From Chloroflexota bacterium (lineage in GTDB: Bacteria > Chloroflexota > Limnocylindria > Limnocylindrales > CSP1-4), in NCBI GenBank assembly GCA_003141245.1, contig PLLE01000043.1, positions 114,531 to 147,380 on the forward strand: 32,850 nucleotides of DNA. The letters run 5' to 3'. The notes under the pieces are model-generated. The model made no database searches and had not been told where the DNA came from. It saw only the letters and a program-made list of their open reading frames with translations. Position 1 is the first letter of the stretch, and every line of letters starts with the position of its first letter. Made by a program: the position numbers and the translations under genes. This document shows, piece by piece, positions 1 through 6,109 of this stretch.

Positions 1-1008
1 GACGTTCGGGTTGACCCGCGCTTCAAGTGGGTTCCCGGCTTCGACCAGTCGCAGTTCACGTCGATGCTCTCGGTGCCGCTGCCCTGGAACGACTCGGTCA
101 TCGGCGTCATCAACCTCCAGGCAATCGAGACTCGCCTCTTCTCGCCCGAAGAGGTGGAGTTCCTGGTCACGATCGGTGCGCTCCTGGGCGGGATCGTCGA
201 GAAGGGACGCCTGCAGGCCGAGGCGGAGGAGCAGCTCGAGACTCTGACCGCCCTGGACGGCGCCCGGGCCGAGCTGCTTGCGGTCGTCACGCACGAGCTG
301 CGGACGCCGCTCGCGGTCGTGCGGGCGTACCTGGACCTGCTCGCCGACGCGGCGATCGACGCGGCGGGCGCCACCCGCCCGGACCTGAGCCTCGTCACCG
401 AGTGGCGGGAACAGGCCATCGGCCAGGTCACGCGCCTGGACCGACTCGTGGACTCGATCCTGGCCTCTGTCCGCGGCGAGGGGCTGGCGGCCGGGCTGGC
501 ACGCCTCCCATTCGACGTCGCCCGCGCCGTGAACGACACGATCGGCGAGATGGCCCCGCTGCTGCGCGAGCACCCGCTTCGTCGCGCCGGAACCTGGGAA
601 TCGCTCGTGGGCATAGGCGACGAGGGACGCTTCCGCCAGGTCCTGGAGCATCTCCTGGAGAACGAGGTGAAGTACTCACCCGAGGGTGGCGCTGTCAGCG
701 TCGGCGCGTGGCGCCACGACGGCGAGATCCAGGTCTACGTCACCGACGACGGACCGGGCATTCCCGAGGCCGAATGGGAGTCCGTCTTCGAGGCGTACGT
801 TCGGACGGCGAACCGACCGCGCGGTTCCGGAATCGGCCTGTACGCGGCCCGGCGGCTCATGAACGCCATGGGTGGACGTGTCTGGTTGGAATCAAATGGG
901 TACGGTGGGAGTCGTTTTATGGTTGCGGTGCCCGAGATGAGCGAAACTCTCGGTGACGCCGGCGGCCCAGAAGCCGGCGTGATGTCCGAGGCAGGCTCGG
1001 ACGGGTAA
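1..1008 (+). CDS. GAF-domain sensor histidine kinase, 5'-truncated by the window edge
   Basis: The reading frame is open from base 1, so the N-terminus lies outside the window. The first ~65 residues look like the end of a GAF domain (VIGVINLQA, then a region ending in GGIVEKGRL). A short coiled linker leads to the dimerisation/phosphoacceptor helix with the H-box THELRTPL; the histidine codon is at 292-294. The C-terminal ATPase domain shows an N-box (HLLENEVKYSPEGG), a DDGPGIP G1 box and a GSGIGLYAARRL G2 box. No membrane segment is visible in this part, so it may be cytosolic. It should autophosphorylate and pass phosphate to the response regulator that starts 50 bases downstream. The signal is unknown; GAF domains bind small ligands. 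Family assignment is firm, ligand is not. Confidence 0.93.
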   Translation, partial: DVRVDPRFKWVPGFDQSQFTSMLSVPLPWNDSVIGVINLQAIETRLFSPEEVEFLVTIGALLGGIVEKGRLQAEAEEQLETLTALDGARAELLAVVTHELRTPLAVVRAYLDLLADAAIDAAGATRPDLSLVTEWREQAIGQVTRLDRLVDSILASVRGEGLAAGLARLPFDVARAVNDTIGEMAPLLREHPLRRAGTWESLVGIGDEGRFRQVLEHLLENEVKYSPEGGAVSVGAWRHDGEIQVYVTDDGPGIPEAEWESVFEAYVRTANRPRGSGIGLYAARRLMNAMGGRVWLESNGYGGSRFMVAVPEMSETLGDAGGPEAGVMSEAGSDG

Positions 1009-1058: not shown

Positions 1059-1772
1059 TTGAGCGCGATGGGTCCGGTAACGGAGGCGAGCCTGCTGATC
1101 CTCGTCGTGGACGACGAGCCGGCGATGGTAGGCGCCGTTTCGGCTCTGGTGGGCCGGGCAGGCCACCGCGTGGTCACCGCGTACGACGGCAACACGGCCC
1201 TGCGTCGTTTTTCTGAGGAACGCCCGGATCTCGTTCTCCTGGATCTGGCCATGCCGGGCCTCGACGGCGTCGAGGTCTGTCGGGCCATCCGCCGCATGTC
1301 CCAGACGCCGATCATCGTCCTCACCGGCGAGGCCGACGAGCGCGCCAAAGTCGAGGCGCTCGATACCGGCGCAGACGACTACGTGGTCAAGCCGTTCGGC
1401 AAGCAGGAGCTGCTGGCACGCATTCGCGCCGTCATGCGGCGCCGTAGCAACGACGCCGAGCCCCGAGGCGCCGGAGAGCTGCGCTGGGGCTCGATCGTCC
1501 TGGACCGCGGCCGGCACACCGCTTCAGTGGCCGGCGAGGAGCTGGTCCTGACGCGGACCGAGTACAGCCTGCTCGCCTCGCTGGTCGCGGCCGCCGGCCA
1601 CGTGGTCTCGCACAGTGCGCTGCTCTCGGCGGGCTGGCCGGGCGAGCCGAACCCCGACCCGCAGTGGCTCAAACCCCACCTGGCCCGCCTTCGCTCCAAA
1701 CTGGAGGGGTCCGGAGCGCCCGCGCCAGCCTCGGTCCGCGGCGTCGGCTACCGCCTGGAGGAAACCGGCTAA
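1059..1772 (+). CDS. OmpR/PhoB-family response regulator (receiver + winged helix)
   Basis: The protein has 237 residues. The receiver domain (residues ~12-125) has the acidic pair D18-D19, phospho-acceptor D62 in LVLLDLAMPGLDG, a conserved threonine in IIVLTGEA and the lysine in VVKPFG. Residues ~140-235 form a winged-helix DNA-binding domain (LTRTEYSLLASLVAAAGHVVS, ending VRGVGYRLEE). I chose the TTG at 1059 because a GGAGG-like site lies about 9 bases upstream; an in-frame ATG at 1068 is the alternative. It is almost certainly cotranscribed with the preceding kinase. OmpR-family regulators typically bind direct repeats spaced 11 bp apart. Exactly such arrays sit in front of the next three genes (2205-2253, 3689-3737, 5218-5266), so this protein is a reasonable candidate for their activator; that link is inference. 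Confidence 0.94.
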   Translation: MSAMGPVTEASLLILVVDDEPAMVGAVSALVGRAGHRVVTAYDGNTALRRFSEERPDLVLLDLAMPGLDGVEVCRAIRRMSQTPIIVLTGEADERAKVEALDTGADDYVVKPFGKQELLARIRAVMRRRSNDAEPRGAGELRWGSIVLDRGRHTASVAGEELVLTRTEYSLLASLVAAAGHVVSHSALLSAGWPGEPNPDPQWLKPHLARLRSKLEGSGAPAPASVRGVGYRLEETG

Positions 1773-1909: not shown

Positions 1910-1940
1910 GCCCGCGCAACCTGCCGAAAGGTGCGCGGGC
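1910..1940 (-). terminator. Intrinsic terminator-like hairpin for the small minus-strand transcript
   Basis: A perfect 9-bp stem, GCCCGCGCA (1910-1918) against TGCGCGGGC (1932-1940), can be extended by CCT/AGG inside the loop. Read on the minus strand it is followed by a T-rich stretch (TTCGTGTTTTC), while the plus-strand side has none, so it most likely ends transcription coming from the small gene at 2041-2121. Nothing else coding is seen in 1773-2040. Confidence 0.6.
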
Positions 1941-2040: not shown

Positions 2041-2121
2041 CTACTTGACGTCCGCGCGAGACGGAGCCACGAACCAACCGACGACCAGAACGCCAAAGCT
2101 GATGAAAGCGGCTGCGATCAC
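2041..2121 (-). CDS. 26-residue single-span membrane protein in the ammonium-transport block
   Basis: This tiny gene starts with GTG at 2121 and stops with TAG at 2041. A strong AAGGAG ribosome-binding site lies at 2129-2134, seven bases before the start, the same SD type seen in front of both amt genes. The product begins with one hydrophobic segment (AAAFISFGVLVVGWFVA, residues ~3-19) followed by a short polar tail (PSRADVK). The predicted promoter at 2177-2253 is built exactly like those of the two ammonium transporters, and a terminator-like hairpin follows at 1910-1940, so it seems to have its own transcript of roughly 270 bases. I do not recognise a family. By size it resembles KdpF-type small subunits or other small proteins that bind membrane transporters. 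A role with Amt proteins is inferred only from location and promoter. Confidence 0.62.
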   Translation of the reverse strand: MIAAAFISFGVLVVGWFVAPSRADVK

Positions 2122-2176
2122 TTCTTGGCTCCTTCGGCTGAACCAGAGGGACTCACGTCCCGTTTCAATGGTTGGA

Positions 2177-2253
2177 AGTCTAGGGAGGGTACCGGCGATA
2201 ATCAGTAGCGCGCGGGTAGACCTTTGGTGACGAGCCGGTGACGCGACGGTTGC
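2177..2253 (-). promoter_or_regulatory. Promoter with five 11-bp-spaced GNNAC boxes, upstream of the small membrane protein
   Basis: Read on the minus strand from 2253 downward: GCAAC-N6-GTCAC-N6-GTCAC-N6-TCTAC-N6-GCTAC, with box positions starting at 2249, 2238, 2227, 2216 and 2205 on the plus strand. TGATT follows at once (2200-2204) and a TAGACT -10 box lies at 2177-2182, 22 bases from the first T of TGATT. The fourth box (TCTAC) departs from the G at position 1. The expected transcription start is near 2170, leaving a leader of about 50 bases. Confidence 0.72.
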
Positions 2254-2375
2254 GCTTCGGGACGTTCGGGCCCTCGAGCATCCCGCCCACTCGCGGCGAC
2301 GACCCCCGGAAATCGAAACGGCACTGGTCCCCTTCTGGGGGCCGGCGGCGTGCGGTGCGGCCGAGCCGCCGTCGC

Positions 2376-3599
2376 TCAGGACTGCCAGGCCACCTCGCCG
2401 TGCTGGGAGGCGTCCAGGCCGGCTTCTTCTTCGGCCTCGTCGACTCGGAGCCCGACCAGCGCGTCCACGACCTTGAGGATCACCAGGGTGGCGACCGCGC
2501 TGTAGATCCAGGTCGCGGCGATGGCGACCAGCTGCGTGCCGACCTGGCCGGCGTTGCCGTCGATGAGGCCCCGGCCCGCGACGTTCACGGCCGTCACTGC
2601 GAAGACGCCGGTCAGCAGGATGCCGAGCGTGCCGCCAACGCCGTGGACGGCCCAGACATCGAGCGCGTCGTCGACCTTCATACGCTCGCGCAGCAGGATC
2701 GCGCCGTAGCAGACCGCGCCCGCGAGGAAGCCGATGACGATGGCGGAGCTCGGATCGACGAAGCCCGAGGCCGGGGTGATGGCGACCTCGCCCGCGATCG
2801 CGCCCGAGACGGCACCGATGACGCTGGGCGAGCCCTTGTGCAGCCAGCTCATGGTCAGCCAGGTGAGCGCGCCCATGCCGGCCGCGGTGTTGGTCACCAG
2901 CACTGCGTTGACGGCCAGGCCGTTGGCCGCAAGAGCGGAGCCGCCGTTGAAGCCGAACCAGCCGAACCACAGGATGCCCGCCCCGATGACCGTCAGGCGG
3001 ACGTCGTGCGGCTCGAAGCGCTCCGACTCGCGCCGGACACGCGGGCCCAGCACCAGGGCCGCGACAAGGGCGGCGACACCGGAGCTGATGTGGACGACCG
3101 TTCCGCCCGCGTAGTCGAGCACGCCCATCTTGTTGAGCCAGCCGCCCTGGCCCCAGACCCAGTGGCAGATCGGCGAGTAGACGAGCAGGCTCCACAGCAG
3201 GGTGAAGAGGACGAAGGCCTTGAAGCGCTTGCGCTCGGCGAAGGCCCCGATGATCAGGGCCGGAGTGATGATGGCGAACATCATCTGGAAGAGCGCGAAG
3301 GCCGTGGCGGGGATGTGGGCGGAATAGGGGCCGGGATCGACGCCGACGCCCTTGAGGCCAAGGTTATCGAGCCCGCCGATGATGCCCCAGCCCTGCACGT
3401 CCGGGCCGAAGGCCAACGTGTACCCGACGAGGACCCAGGTCACGCTCACCAGGCCCAGGATGAACATGCACTGCATCAGGATGCTGAGCACGTTCTTGCG
3501 GCGAACCAGGCCGCCGTAGAAGAGCGCCAGGCCGGGCGTCATCAGCATGACGAGCGCCGTCGCGGTCAGTACCCAGGCGGTGGCGCCACTGTCGATCAC
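2376..3599 (-). CDS. amt: Ammonium transporter (Amt/MEP/Rh family), first copy
   Basis: The product has about 407 residues and the many hydrophobic spans expected of Amt channels. Family signatures include TPGLALFYGGLVRRKNVLS near the N-terminus, DYAGGTVVHISSG with the first pore histidine, GFNGGSALAANG, and WAVHGVGGTLG with the second pore histidine. The C-terminal tail EEEAGLDASQHGE is the cytoplasmic segment that in other bacteria contacts GlnK. I chose the GTG at 3599 because AAGGAG precedes it by eight bases and the longer frame adds nothing Amt-like. It moves NH4+/NH3 into the cell. It is a tandem paralogue of the gene at 3871-5109, with near-identical tails, and has its own promoter array. 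No PII (glnK) gene lies beside it. Confidence 0.95.
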   Translation of the reverse strand: MIDSGATAWVLTATALVMLMTPGLALFYGGLVRRKNVLSILMQCMFILGLVSVTWVLVGYTLAFGPDVQGWGIIGGLDNLGLKGVGVDPGPYSAHIPATAFALFQMMFAIITPALIIGAFAERKRFKAFVLFTLLWSLLVYSPICHWVWGQGGWLNKMGVLDYAGGTVVHISSGVAALVAALVLGPRVRRESERFEPHDVRLTVIGAGILWFGWFGFNGGSALAANGLAVNAVLVTNTAAGMGALTWLTMSWLHKGSPSVIGAVSGAIAGEVAITPASGFVDPSSAIVIGFLAGAVCYGAILLRERMKVDDALDVWAVHGVGGTLGILLTGVFAVTAVNVAGRGLIDGNAGQVGTQLVAIAATWIYSAVATLVILKVVDALVGLRVDEAEEEAGLDASQHGEVAWQS

Positions 3600-3660
3600 G
3601 CTCGAGACTCCTTCGCATCCAGATCGCAACGAGACGGTCGCCGCGGTTGCGGCCCGGGGA

Positions 3661-3737
3661 AGCGTATGGAGGCAGGAGCTCGGAATCAGTAACGACCGAG
3701 TGACCCTCAGGTGGCGCTGTGGTAGCGCGAGGGTTGT
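3661..3737 (-). promoter_or_regulatory. Promoter with five 11-bp-spaced GNNAC boxes, upstream of the first amt
   Basis: Minus-strand order from 3737: ACAAC-N6-GCTAC-N6-GCCAC-N6-GTCAC-N6-GTTAC, starting on the plus strand at 3733, 3722, 3711, 3700 and 3689. TGATT follows directly (3684-3688), and a TACGCT -10 box sits at 3661-3666, again 22 bases from the first T of TGATT. The leader to the GTG start would be about 55 bases. Confidence 0.78.
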
Positions 3738-3790
3738 CGTTCGGGACGTGCTGCGACGACCGGGCCCGCTGGCTCGGCTGGCGGTTCTCG

Positions 3791-3813
3791 GGGGCCCGTT
3801 TGGCCGGGACCCC
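3791..3813 (-). terminator. Possible hairpin terminator after the second amt
   Basis: GGGGCCCG (3791-3798) can pair with CGGGACCCC (3805-3813) with one bulged base, giving an 8-bp GC-rich stem downstream of the amt gene that ends at 3871. No T-run follows on the minus strand, so this is weak as an intrinsic terminator. Confidence 0.3.
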
Positions 3814-3870
3814 AGGCGTTGAAGGTTGCCGGTCGGTGCCGGTCGGCCCTGCCGTCGACCCGTTCGATCG

Positions 3871-5109
3871 CTAGCTCTGCCAGGCCACCTCGCCGTGCTG
3901 CGAGGAGTCGAGACCGGCCTCTTCCTCGGCCTCGCCGACGCGGAGCCCGACGAAGAAGTCGACGACTTTGAGGATGATGAAAGTAGCGACGCCGCTGTAG
4001 ATCCAGGTCGCGCCGACGGCCACCAGCTGCTTGAGGACCTGACTGCCGTTGCCCTCGACCAGACCGGACGCCCCGTTGACGGCCGCGATCGCGAAGACGC
4101 CGGTCAGGATCGCGCCGAGCGTGCCGCCAACCCCGTGGACGGCCCAGACGTCGAGTGCGTCGTCGACCTTGAGTCGCTCGCGCAGCAGGATCGCGCCGTA
4201 GCAGGTCACGCCCGCGGCAAAGCCGATGATGATGGCCGCGCTGGCATCGACGTAGCCAGAGGCGGGAGTGATGGCCACGAGGCCCGCCACGCCACCCACC
4301 ACCGCGCCCACTACGCTCGGCGTGCCCTTGTGCAGCCAGCTCACGGTGACCCACGTCAGCGCCGCCATGCCGGCGGCCGTATTGGTGACCACGAACGCGT
4401 TGGCCGCAAGGCCGTTCGCGGCCAGGGCTGAGCCACCGTTGAAGCCGAACCAGCCGAACCAGAGCAGGCCTGCACCGATGACCGTCAGGCGGACGTCGTG
4501 CGGCTCAAAACGGTCGGACTCGCGCTTGACTCTCGGGCCCAGGACGAGCGCGGCGACCAGCGCCGCGACGCCCGAGCTGACGTGGACGACGGTGCCGCCG
4601 GCGAAGTCGATGGCGCCCATCTTGTTGAGCCATCCGCCCTGACCCCAGACCCAGTGGGCAATCGGCGAGTAGACGAGGAGAGTCCACAGCAGCGAGAACA
4701 GCACGAACGCCTTGAAGCGCTTACGTTCCGCGAACGCCCCCGTGATGAGGGCCGGCGTGATGACGGCGAACATCATCTGGAAGGCCATGTAGGCGGAGCC
4801 GGGAATGGTCGGCGCGTACTGGGTAAGGGGATCCTTGCCCACGCCGTGGAGTCCGATGTAGTCGAGCCCGCCGATGATCCCCCAGCCGTTGACGTCCTTG
4901 CCGAACGCCAGGGTGAACCCAATGAGAACCCACGTGACGCTGACCAGGGCGAGGATGAAGACGCTGTGCATGATCGTGCTCAGCACGTTCTTGCGGCGAA
5001 CCAGGCCACCGTAGAAGAGCGCCAGGCCGGGCGTCATGAGCATGACGAGCGCAGCCGATGTCAGCACCCAGGCGGTGTCGCCGGAATTGATCCCGCCAGC
5101 GGTGGGCAC
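3871..5109 (-). CDS. amt: Ammonium transporter (Amt/MEP/Rh family), second copy
   Basis: The product has about 412 residues and is closely similar to the downstream copy through most of its length. It shares TPGLALFYGGLVRRKNVLS, DFAGGTVVHVSSG and WAVHGVGGTLG with both pore histidines, and the tail EEEAGLDSSQHGEVAWQS. The main differences are the first ~15 residues and the extracellular loop after GGLDYIGLHGVGKDP. I prefer the GTG at 5109, eight bases after AAGGAG; the in-frame GTG at 5118 overlaps that site. It has its own promoter array at 5190-5266, so the two copies can be transcribed separately. Two copies may differ in affinity or expression, but the sequence alone does not say. Confidence 0.95.
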   Translation of the reverse strand: MPTAGGINSGDTAWVLTSAALVMLMTPGLALFYGGLVRRKNVLSTIMHSVFILALVSVTWVLIGFTLAFGKDVNGWGIIGGLDYIGLHGVGKDPLTQYAPTIPGSAYMAFQMMFAVITPALITGAFAERKRFKAFVLFSLLWTLLVYSPIAHWVWGQGGWLNKMGAIDFAGGTVVHVSSGVAALVAALVLGPRVKRESDRFEPHDVRLTVIGAGLLWFGWFGFNGGSALAANGLAANAFVVTNTAAGMAALTWVTVSWLHKGTPSVVGAVVGGVAGLVAITPASGYVDASAAIIIGFAAGVTCYGAILLRERLKVDDALDVWAVHGVGGTLGAILTGVFAIAAVNGASGLVEGNGSQVLKQLVAVGATWIYSGVATFIILKVVDFFVGLRVGEAEEEAGLDSSQHGEVAWQS

Positions 5110-5189
5110 GAGTGGCACTCCTTCGCAAAGTCGGTCGATGGCGGCGGGGCAGTTCCTTCACGGCGGCAGGGCCGCCCCGCTCGGACCGA

Positions 5190-5266
5190 AGAATACGGAT
5201 GCGGTTCGGCGGAATCAGTGGCCGTCGGGTGACCTTTGCGTCACGGTCCGGTGGCGCCCGGGTTGC
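5190..5266 (-). promoter_or_regulatory. Promoter with five 11-bp-spaced GNNAC boxes, upstream of the second amt
   Basis: Minus-strand order from 5266: GCAAC-N6-GCCAC-N6-GTGAC-N6-GTCAC-N6-GCCAC, starting on the plus strand at 5262, 5251, 5240, 5229 and 5218. TGATT follows directly (5213-5217) and TATTCT at 5190-5195 is the -10 box, 22 bases from the first T of TGATT. The arrangement is identical in geometry to the other two arrays, although the spacer bases differ. Confidence 0.78.
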
Positions 5267-5312
5267 CGTTCAGGACGGGGTGCGGCGCGGTCCGGTGGGC
5301 GCGGCGCTCGCA

Positions 5313-5575: not shown

Positions 5576-5640
5576 ACGAGCGGCCGCGACACGAGCGGCC
5601 GCGACACGAGCGGCCGCGACACGAGCGGCCGCGACACGGC
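5576..5640. repeat. 15-bp tandem repeat, just over four copies
   Basis: ACGAGCGGCCGCGAC is repeated perfectly at 5576-5590, 5591-5605, 5606-5620 and 5621-5635, followed by a partial copy. Each unit contains the 8-bp palindrome GCGGCCGC. There are no spacers between units, so this is a simple tandem repeat rather than a CRISPR array. Confidence 0.9.
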
Positions 5641-5708: not shown

Positions 5709-5972
5709 CTAGGAAGCGAGCTGTTCCACCTGTGCAATGCGGTGCGGGCGATCCACGCACTTGACACGGCAGCCGCGAGCATCGGTGTCCCAGGTGTTGC
5801 CGTGGTAATGCCGCCAGGCGGCATCCGGTCCGTAGCAACCGCCGTCGGGCAAAGATTCTCGGGCGATGAGGCGGCAGCCGCAGGCAGCGCAGGTCAGCAC
5901 GGACGAGCCCTCGCGGTGCACTGCGCGGGGTTTGGACTGCTCCCCGGTCGGCTCGTACTCGTGCAGCTTCAT
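5709..5972 (-). CDS. Small Cys/His-rich protein, probably zinc-binding, unknown function
   Basis: The product has 87 residues if it starts at the ATG at 5972, which follows an AGGTGG site by about five bases; a GTG at 5981 is the alternative. Five or six cysteines and several histidines are clustered: LTCAACGCRL, then GGCYG, WRHYHGNTW, and GCRVKCVDRPH. This suggests one or two metal sites or a disulphide-stabilised fold. There is no signal peptide or membrane segment. Composition (mixed charge, Trp, His) is that of a real protein rather than a chance GC-rich frame. I do not recognise the family. It is transcribed in the same direction as argH upstream, with a gap of about 130 bases. Confidence 0.6.
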   Translation of the reverse strand: MKLHEYEPTGEQSKPRAVHREGSSVLTCAACGCRLIARESLPDGGCYGPDAAWRHYHGNTWDTDARGCRVKCVDRPHRIAQVEQLAS

Positions 5973-6109
5973 TCGGTCCACCTGGTTAGCGGAGCGTGCC
6001 TCCGCGCCAGATCAGCCTACGCCGTCGCCGGCGCCATGGCGGCATCAGCCGCGTGCCAATTTGGTGCCGGATCGGGGCGCAGCGGCATGGCCCGGCTCGG
6101 GCCGTCACG

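Follow-up and report, generated by a model that had tools for sequence, protein, structure and literature searches.

Two ammonium transporter (amt) genes and a gene for a 26-amino-acid (aa) peptide in a Chloroflexota bacterium (Limnocylindria; Limnocylindrales; CSP1-4) are each preceded by short boxes that repeat every 11 bp and run into a promoter. What are these arrays, and which protein would read them? The stretch that we analyzed, here called the window, is 32,850 nucleotides (nt) long (assembly GCA_003141245.1, contig PLLE01000043.1, positions 114,531 to 147,380), has a GC content of 68.4%, and belongs to a genome of 2.54 Mb. A first-pass annotation, made from the letters of the window, had proposed a nitrogen regulon with a GlnR-like activator of the OmpR family, and had pointed to the regulator gene at 1059-1772. 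Judged from related genomes, the arrays appear to mark an undescribed nitrogen-response regulon that is probably run by this neighbouring two-component regulator. No nitrogen regulon of this lineage turned up among the titles listed in searches of open-licence PMC papers, and the arrays would give an uncultivated class a nitrogen regulon whose sites follow a precise grammar.

Array geometry in the window and in the genus

All three arrays are on the minus strand. The array at 5218-5266 (five-box extent; boxes GCAAC GCCAC GTGAC GTCAC GCCAC) precedes the amt gene at 3871-5118 (minus strand; PF00909). The array at 3689-3737 (ACAAC GCTAC GCCAC GTCAC GTTAC) precedes a paralogous amt gene at 2376-3629 (minus strand; PF00909), and the array at 2205-2253 (GCAAC GTCAC GTCAC TCTAC GCTAC) precedes the peptide gene, a membrane-type open reading frame (ORF) with a GTG start at 2041-2121 (minus strand; MIAAAFISFGVLVVGWFVAPSRADVK). 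GNNAC fits 13 of the 15 boxes, which had been described as mostly GNNAC. Each array abuts TGATT, and a -10 element begins exactly 22 bases after the first T: TATTCT (5190-5195), TACGCT (3661-3666) and TAGACT (2177-2182), in the same order. The -35 element is CTGATT (5213-5218, 3684-3689 and 2200-2205), and its C is common to the last box. The positions, the 11-bp period, the abutment and the distance to the -10 element were all as first annotated. The five boxes were likewise confirmed, but the total was not: a sixth unit, the cap CGTCC, lies 11 bp upstream of box 1 in all three arrays (first bases 5277, 3748 and 2264; the first cap occupies 5277-5273). The six-unit arrays thus span 5218-5277, 3689-3748 and 2205-2264.

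This pattern is not expected by chance. AC at five successive 11-bp steps occurs three times in the window, each time together with TGATT and TANNCT. In 300 first-order Markov simulations the mean was 0.03 and the maximum 1, and in none of them was the promoter part joined to the repeats. A shorter pattern is less telling: GNNAC repeated three times has 20 matches in the whole genome, six of them inside the three arrays, against 12 in a reversed control, and is therefore too short on its own. The arrays are not a recent copy of one another, as had been noted from their spacers, because any two are identical at only 56-60 of 90 positions, even though the two amt genes, which lie in tandem, are paralogs with 80% protein identity. 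The nearest named relative of these transporters (71%) is from a metagenome-assembled genome (MAG) labelled 'Chloroflexi bacterium'.

We found the same grammar throughout the genus. The surroundings of amt genes were taken from 18 other genus genomes (20 stretches), which together with the window gave 45 arrays from 19 genomes. These align without gaps over 99 columns, and the distance from array to core promoter is invariant; the collecting script required a T at +22 from TGATT, which bears on the fixed -10 distance in these 45 arrays. Conservation sets in abruptly 60 bases before the T of TGATT (-60), where the cap CGTMC reads C (98%), G (98%), T (100%), C or A (76% and 18%) and C (98%). Between the cap and box 1, AA at -53/-52 is invariant and is followed by C (84%). 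Box 1 is G (84%), C (96%), A (100%), A (100%), C (100%), and AC is conserved at 98-100% at each 11-bp step through the last box. The core promoter reads CTGATT-N17-TANNCT, the -35 C doubling as the C of the last box. Its TGA is conserved at 96, 100 and 100% and the two following Ts at 91 and 96%; TA at +22/+23 is invariant, and C and T at +26/+27 are at 98 and 100%. The genus arrays therefore have six units, not five, and the last one abuts the -35 element at a fixed distance from the -10 element in all 45. By its sequence, this architecture is like that of a PhoB- or GlnR-type activator set against a -35 element.

The number of boxes is less constant than their placement. Of the 45 genus arrays, 44 have the full set of five AC boxes, compared to two to four in 52 other sites (the anchoring score itself favours boxes). 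Outside the genus, most sites have a smaller number of boxes, but these stay in phase with the -35 and -10 elements. This natural range of box number at one promoter geometry offers a way into how the length of an activator array sets the response of a promoter. It also bears on the notion that the block is chiefly an unusual core promoter for one particular sigma factor and that the GNNAC periodicity belongs to an extended form of promoter recognition. In favour of this notion, the -35/-10 part and its distance are conserved within the genus as much as the boxes are. However, box number varies between targets while the core stays, and 55 bp of 11-bp direct repeats far exceeds any sigma contact known to us. 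We regard this explanation as very improbable.

Targets of the arrays across the class

We found that strong matches to the grammar are confined to the genus and to two kinds of gene. A model of the 45 genus arrays that uses sequence only (R1) was searched against 107 family genomes. There were 51 strong matches (E<=1.3e-11), all in the genus and covering 21 of 21 genus genomes; 45 of these were in the model itself and six were new. The six include one before amt in genome G041 with degenerate last boxes. Thirty of the 51 precede amt (one of the 30 assigned by reading), and the other 21 precede the 26-aa peptide gene, one per genome. The next matches were at E 4.6e-6 and weaker. Among them, two precede gltB (loci L266 and L268, with a Pfam check on L268) and, judged by eye, are about a base out of phase. 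The three window arrays were the only strong matches in their own genome; two more, at E 0.02 or above (on contigs C20 and C46), were dropped, as they lie within or at the ends of coding regions.

A second model (R2) was made from 21 chosen sites, 13 before genes for a small Cys-rich protein, five before amt, and three before a permease gene in the genus. Eighteen of these sites were from outside the genus and none was a six-unit array. R2 was run over the family and over 177 class genomes with a cut-off of E<=1e-4, and the genes downstream were classed with motifs or, where no motif applied, from their translations (16 of 96 settled by reading). We obtained 96 matches in 66 of the 177 genomes. 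The targets were the Cys-rich protein (41), amt (20), a peptide of the 26-aa type (17), gltB (9), an APC permease (6) and glnA (2), and the remaining match was at a contig end. Recurrent gene classes thus follow 95 of the 96 matches, and the arrays are not scattered at unrelated genes. Non-training sites make up 76 of the 96. The 28 matches before gltB, glnA and the peptide gene are of target classes absent from the training set.

The presence of arrays before amt, gltB, glnA and permease genes across genera supports the proposed nitrogen regulon, and the 20 amt, nine gltB and two glnA sites are GlnR-like targets. Of the gln genes that had been named as expected targets, glnA was found, once in genome G002 and once in G151; glnK and glnB were not, and do not apply to the genome of the window, in which no P-II gene was detected. 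We take the glnA of G002 to be type I-like and that of G151 to be type II-like. R2 gave no strong match (best E 0.0022) in 80 amt loci of named genomes, largely from other phyla, and these loci therefore served as a negative set. One weak R2 match in the own genome (contig C25) lies inside a long reading frame, and a looser scan (four of six AC steps) was discarded because of much noise.

A regulator next to the arrays

The regulator gene at 1059-1772 (plus strand) encodes a receiver domain (PF00072, E 2.9e-32) followed by a Trans_reg_C domain (PF00486, E 2.9e-14), as in the OmpR/PhoB family. In 24 aligned orthologs (53-96% identity to the first), D18, D19, D62 and K111 are invariant and form a canonical Asp/Asp/Asp/Lys pocket. 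The recognition helix WLKPH..R.R.K (W203, L204, K205, P206, H207, R210, R212 and K214) is also invariant. A histidine kinase gene (HisKA and HATPase_c) lies beside it at 1-1008 (plus strand), its 5' end lost in a run of Ns at the left edge of the window. In 13 of 20 related loci, a kinase motif lies on the strand of the regulator and no more than 1.8 kb upstream of it; one of the 20 loci has only 0.6 kb upstream. The run that removes the 5' part of the window kinase is 12 bases long and lies just left of window position 1 (L355 4020-4031). A gene that we take to be ArgR-like is located ~1.6-2.1 kb further upstream of this run.

These features set the regulator apart from GlnR in the strict sense. 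In the sections cited here, GlnR sites are 5-bp sites repeated at 11 bp, gTnAc-n6-GaAAc, before amtB and glnA (PMC10704036, PMC5826061), and GlnR itself is an orphan regulator whose phosphorylation pocket is non-canonical (PMC10704036). The arrays share with those operators the 11-bp repeat of 5-bp sites and the position before amt and glnA. They differ in that their units read GCAAC and then GYYAC, in lacking the alternation of a and b sites, and in having the CGTMC cap. The regulator, unlike GlnR, has the canonical pocket in 24 of 24 orthologs and a neighbouring kinase, and no glnK was found in its own genome. Neither of the PDB entries 8hih and 8hig is among the best 60 of 180 PDB sequences for the regulator, and there is no GlnR model among its best 25 of 98 NCBIfam matches. 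Because of the canonical pocket, the neighbouring kinase and the absence of alternating a/b sites, we do not class it as GlnR, and this part of the first-pass annotation is not supported. The remark that five units exceed the usual two or three also needs tempering: in the section of PMC5826061 cited here, the Streptomyces coelicolor amtB promoter already has three GlnR boxes, that is six sites, and the extra box makes activation prompter. Given those six sites, it is possible that long arrays evolved at amt on more than one occasion.

Arrays outside the genus cluster beside orthologs of this regulator, which supports the assignment to 1059-1772. Among the 86 weaker non-genus R1 matches listed, 15 have a regulator ortholog within 1 kb, compared to ~0.09 expected (arithmetic). 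Thirteen of these 15 precede the small Cys-rich protein, one (G062) precedes amt, and one (G031) precedes nothing recognizable. Seven of the 86 have amt within 1 kb, giving 21 distinct matches together with the regulator set. With R2, 26 of the 53 matches in the family outside the genus are at most 1.5 kb from an ortholog of the window regulator; 13 of these 26 are training sites partly chosen for position and 13 are non-training sites. In contrast, none of the 53 is near the 46 listed places of a paralog type with 43-47% identity.

Might the arrays be nitrogen operators bound by a different OmpR-family protein? Other candidates exist, since the own genome holds 14 Trans_reg_C matches; the linkage comparison covered the window regulator, the paralog type and an atypical OmpR-type regulator (G000:C26:143792-144505) of patchy spread. 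The last has a degenerate receiver without the canonical Lys, as in GlnR, and it matches 8hih and 8hig, which we take to be GlnR structures. However, none of the 53 matches is within 1.5 kb of the 37 listed non-genus places of this type, and the type itself (E<=1e-40) occurs in 39 of 107 family genomes and in 12 of the 21 genus genomes, although all 21 have arrays. The window regulator type, in contrast, has a match of at least 200 bits in 97 of the 107 family genomes, and every one of the 21 genus genomes is among these (a match at E<=1e-45 is found in 104 of 107, part of these being paralogs). From the types compared, we therefore consider a different OmpR-family protein unlikely. That a regulator of the OmpR family controls a nitrogen regulon here is well supported.

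The nearest solved relatives of the regulator among the best 60 of 180 PDB sequences are RegX3, MtrA, PrrA, PhoP and KdpE, with RegX3 nearest. This raises the alternative of a PhoP/RegX3-like phosphate system, with the arrays as its PHO-type boxes and control of amt as cross-talk between nitrogen and phosphate, as in Streptomyces. The PHO boxes of PhoP, PhoB and RegX3 are also 11-nt direct repeats, read by phosphorylated regulators of the OmpR family, and their Streptomyces core, GTTCACC in the section of PMC4415409 cited here, is near GYYACC in the arrays. The targets speak against it: they are amt, gltB, glnA, permease and two small-protein genes, and because there is no phosphate gene among the 96 classified R2 matches we do not regard the arrays as a Pho regulon. 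A phosphate system is, in our estimate, an improbable explanation.

We therefore favour the explanation that the arrays are operator-promoters for nitrogen scarcity and that the regulator at 1059-1772, phosphorylated by the adjacent kinase, is their activator; we put its probability at about 0.7. The grammar, the rigid spacing in the genus, the restricted targets and the linkage to the regulator in other genera are shown by comparison of genomes. In the proposed mechanism, the kinase beside 1059-1772 would phosphorylate the regulator, which would then occupy the units as dimers arranged head to tail (three on each six-unit array), and the unit touching the -35 element would contact sigma region 4. 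Nitrogen shortage would thereby increase transcription of the two amt genes and the peptide gene and, more weakly, of a Cys-rich protein gene. By comparison, in the GlnR transcription activation complex, as the review PMC10704036 describes it, four GlnR DNA-binding domains occupy four sites beside RNA polymerase in a head-to-tail row; the arrays have six units rather than four. The six-unit arrays of the genus look like an expansion of an ancestral operator of three to four units, and six units would give the strongest or fastest response, like the extra boxes at Streptomyces amtB.

Several points weigh against this explanation. The linkage between regulator and arrays could stem from conserved clustering of nitrogen genes and not from site recognition, and the geometry is the one indication of activation rather than repression. 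The R2 training sites were picked partly for nearness to the regulator or to amt, which leaves R1 and the non-training R2 sites as the only unbiased tests. Infernal E-values are rough, and kinship inflates the counts, as related genomes are not independent. The G031 match precedes no recognizable target despite its nearness to the regulator, and another R1 match near amt, in G083, is downstream of the gene. The own genome has no clear array at gltB and only a degenerate one at its APC permease gene. The occurrence of the pattern upstream of orthologous amt genes, on which the first-pass annotation had staked its proposal, holds throughout the genus and, with shorter arrays, in several other genera; under the fixed-phase score, the amt genes of several further genera have a weak array or none.

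Small proteins in a lineage mostly without P-II

We found that P-II (PF00543), the usual nitrogen sensor and the protein family of GlnK, is rare in this lineage. It was not found in 120 of 126 order genomes nor in any of the 21 genus genomes, including that of the window, and controls for this search were positive in 13 of 14 cases. In four of the six genomes with P-II, its gene adjoins an amt gene of another type (47-50% identical). MAG incompleteness lowers the weight of this absence but does not explain it, as 33 of the 37 best genomes are also without P-II. Most array-bearing amt genes thus seem to function in the absence of GlnK. For this reason the peptide and the Cys-rich protein deserve attention as candidates for control of the transporter or of assimilation, although such a role is speculation. 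If the proposed explanation is true, this would be a separate OmpR-family solution to nitrogen control in a lineage mostly without P-II. The arrays also give a context to two unstudied small-protein families.

The peptide is conserved along with its array. It has 26-27 aa in 17 of 17 aligned genus loci and was also seen in the other four genus genomes. It is not a quirk of the genus, because in G143 (L337), from another family of the class, an array precedes a gene for a 42-aa protein whose core matches the window peptide (local score 71 compared to at most 41 in 2000 shuffles). The ORF has a good ribosome-binding site. The region containing it (TCAGCCGAAGGAG, 2129-2141, minus strand) has 13 bases that do not vary among 17 genomes, which exceeds the need of a Shine-Dalgarno sequence. 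The transcript probably ends at an intrinsic terminator, a hairpin at 1910-1940 (minus strand) whose sequence is well conserved in the genus (folding energy -27.4 kcal/mol for a 56-nt stretch, z -2.5). A small RNA from this third promoter was considered and rejected because of poor conservation between the peptide stop codon and the terminator.

A precedent for a small protein at an ammonium transporter is sP36 of Methanosarcina mazei, which acts on the transporter according to nitrogen supply. In the section of PMC10714827 cited here, sP36 has 61 aa, is cytoplasmic and then recruited to the membrane, and works with GlnK1. In contrast, the peptide here has 26 aa, is of membrane type, and is encoded in a genome without a detected P-II. 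A wider proposal, which we offer tentatively and think somewhat doubtful, is a P-II-free nitrogen control made of a canonical two-component OmpR-type regulator, an array length tuned to the target, and the peptide and Cys-rich protein in place of GlnK. It is possible, at similarly modest odds, that such tuning accounts for the two to four AC boxes elsewhere and the six units at amt in the genus. Equally conjectural is its remaining part, in which the peptide and, in many genera, the ~75-aa Cys-rich protein would act on the ammonium transporter or on assimilation.

The window also encodes a member of the Cys-rich family, an 87-aa protein at 5709-5972 (minus strand) with the signature CxxCGCRL...H[FY]...DARGC...C...H. 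In related genomes, its relatives are encoded behind arrays more often than any other target, as described above. Family members have ~70-95 aa, and CxxCGCRL, H, DA.G and further C/H residues are invariant in 54 relatives; this alignment (A3) holds 54 of 55 proteins, a short copy having been left out and one given a later start, and one row in two was viewed. From these residues the protein is probably metal-binding. The members scanned had no Pfam or NCBIfam match, and the AlphaFold model is weak (mean pLDDT 66), its fold matches all being at E 1 or above. Upstream of the gene is a degenerate short array at 6053-6079 (minus strand), consisting of a cap-like CGCCC and two GGCAC units at 11-bp steps, which matched neither R1 nor R2. 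TAGGCT at 6019-6014 is in the expected phase to it, as counted by eye. Between the amt genes and the Cys-rich gene there is also a short tandem repeat with a 15-base period (5579-5638), in which a shift by one period leaves 45 of 45 bases matched.

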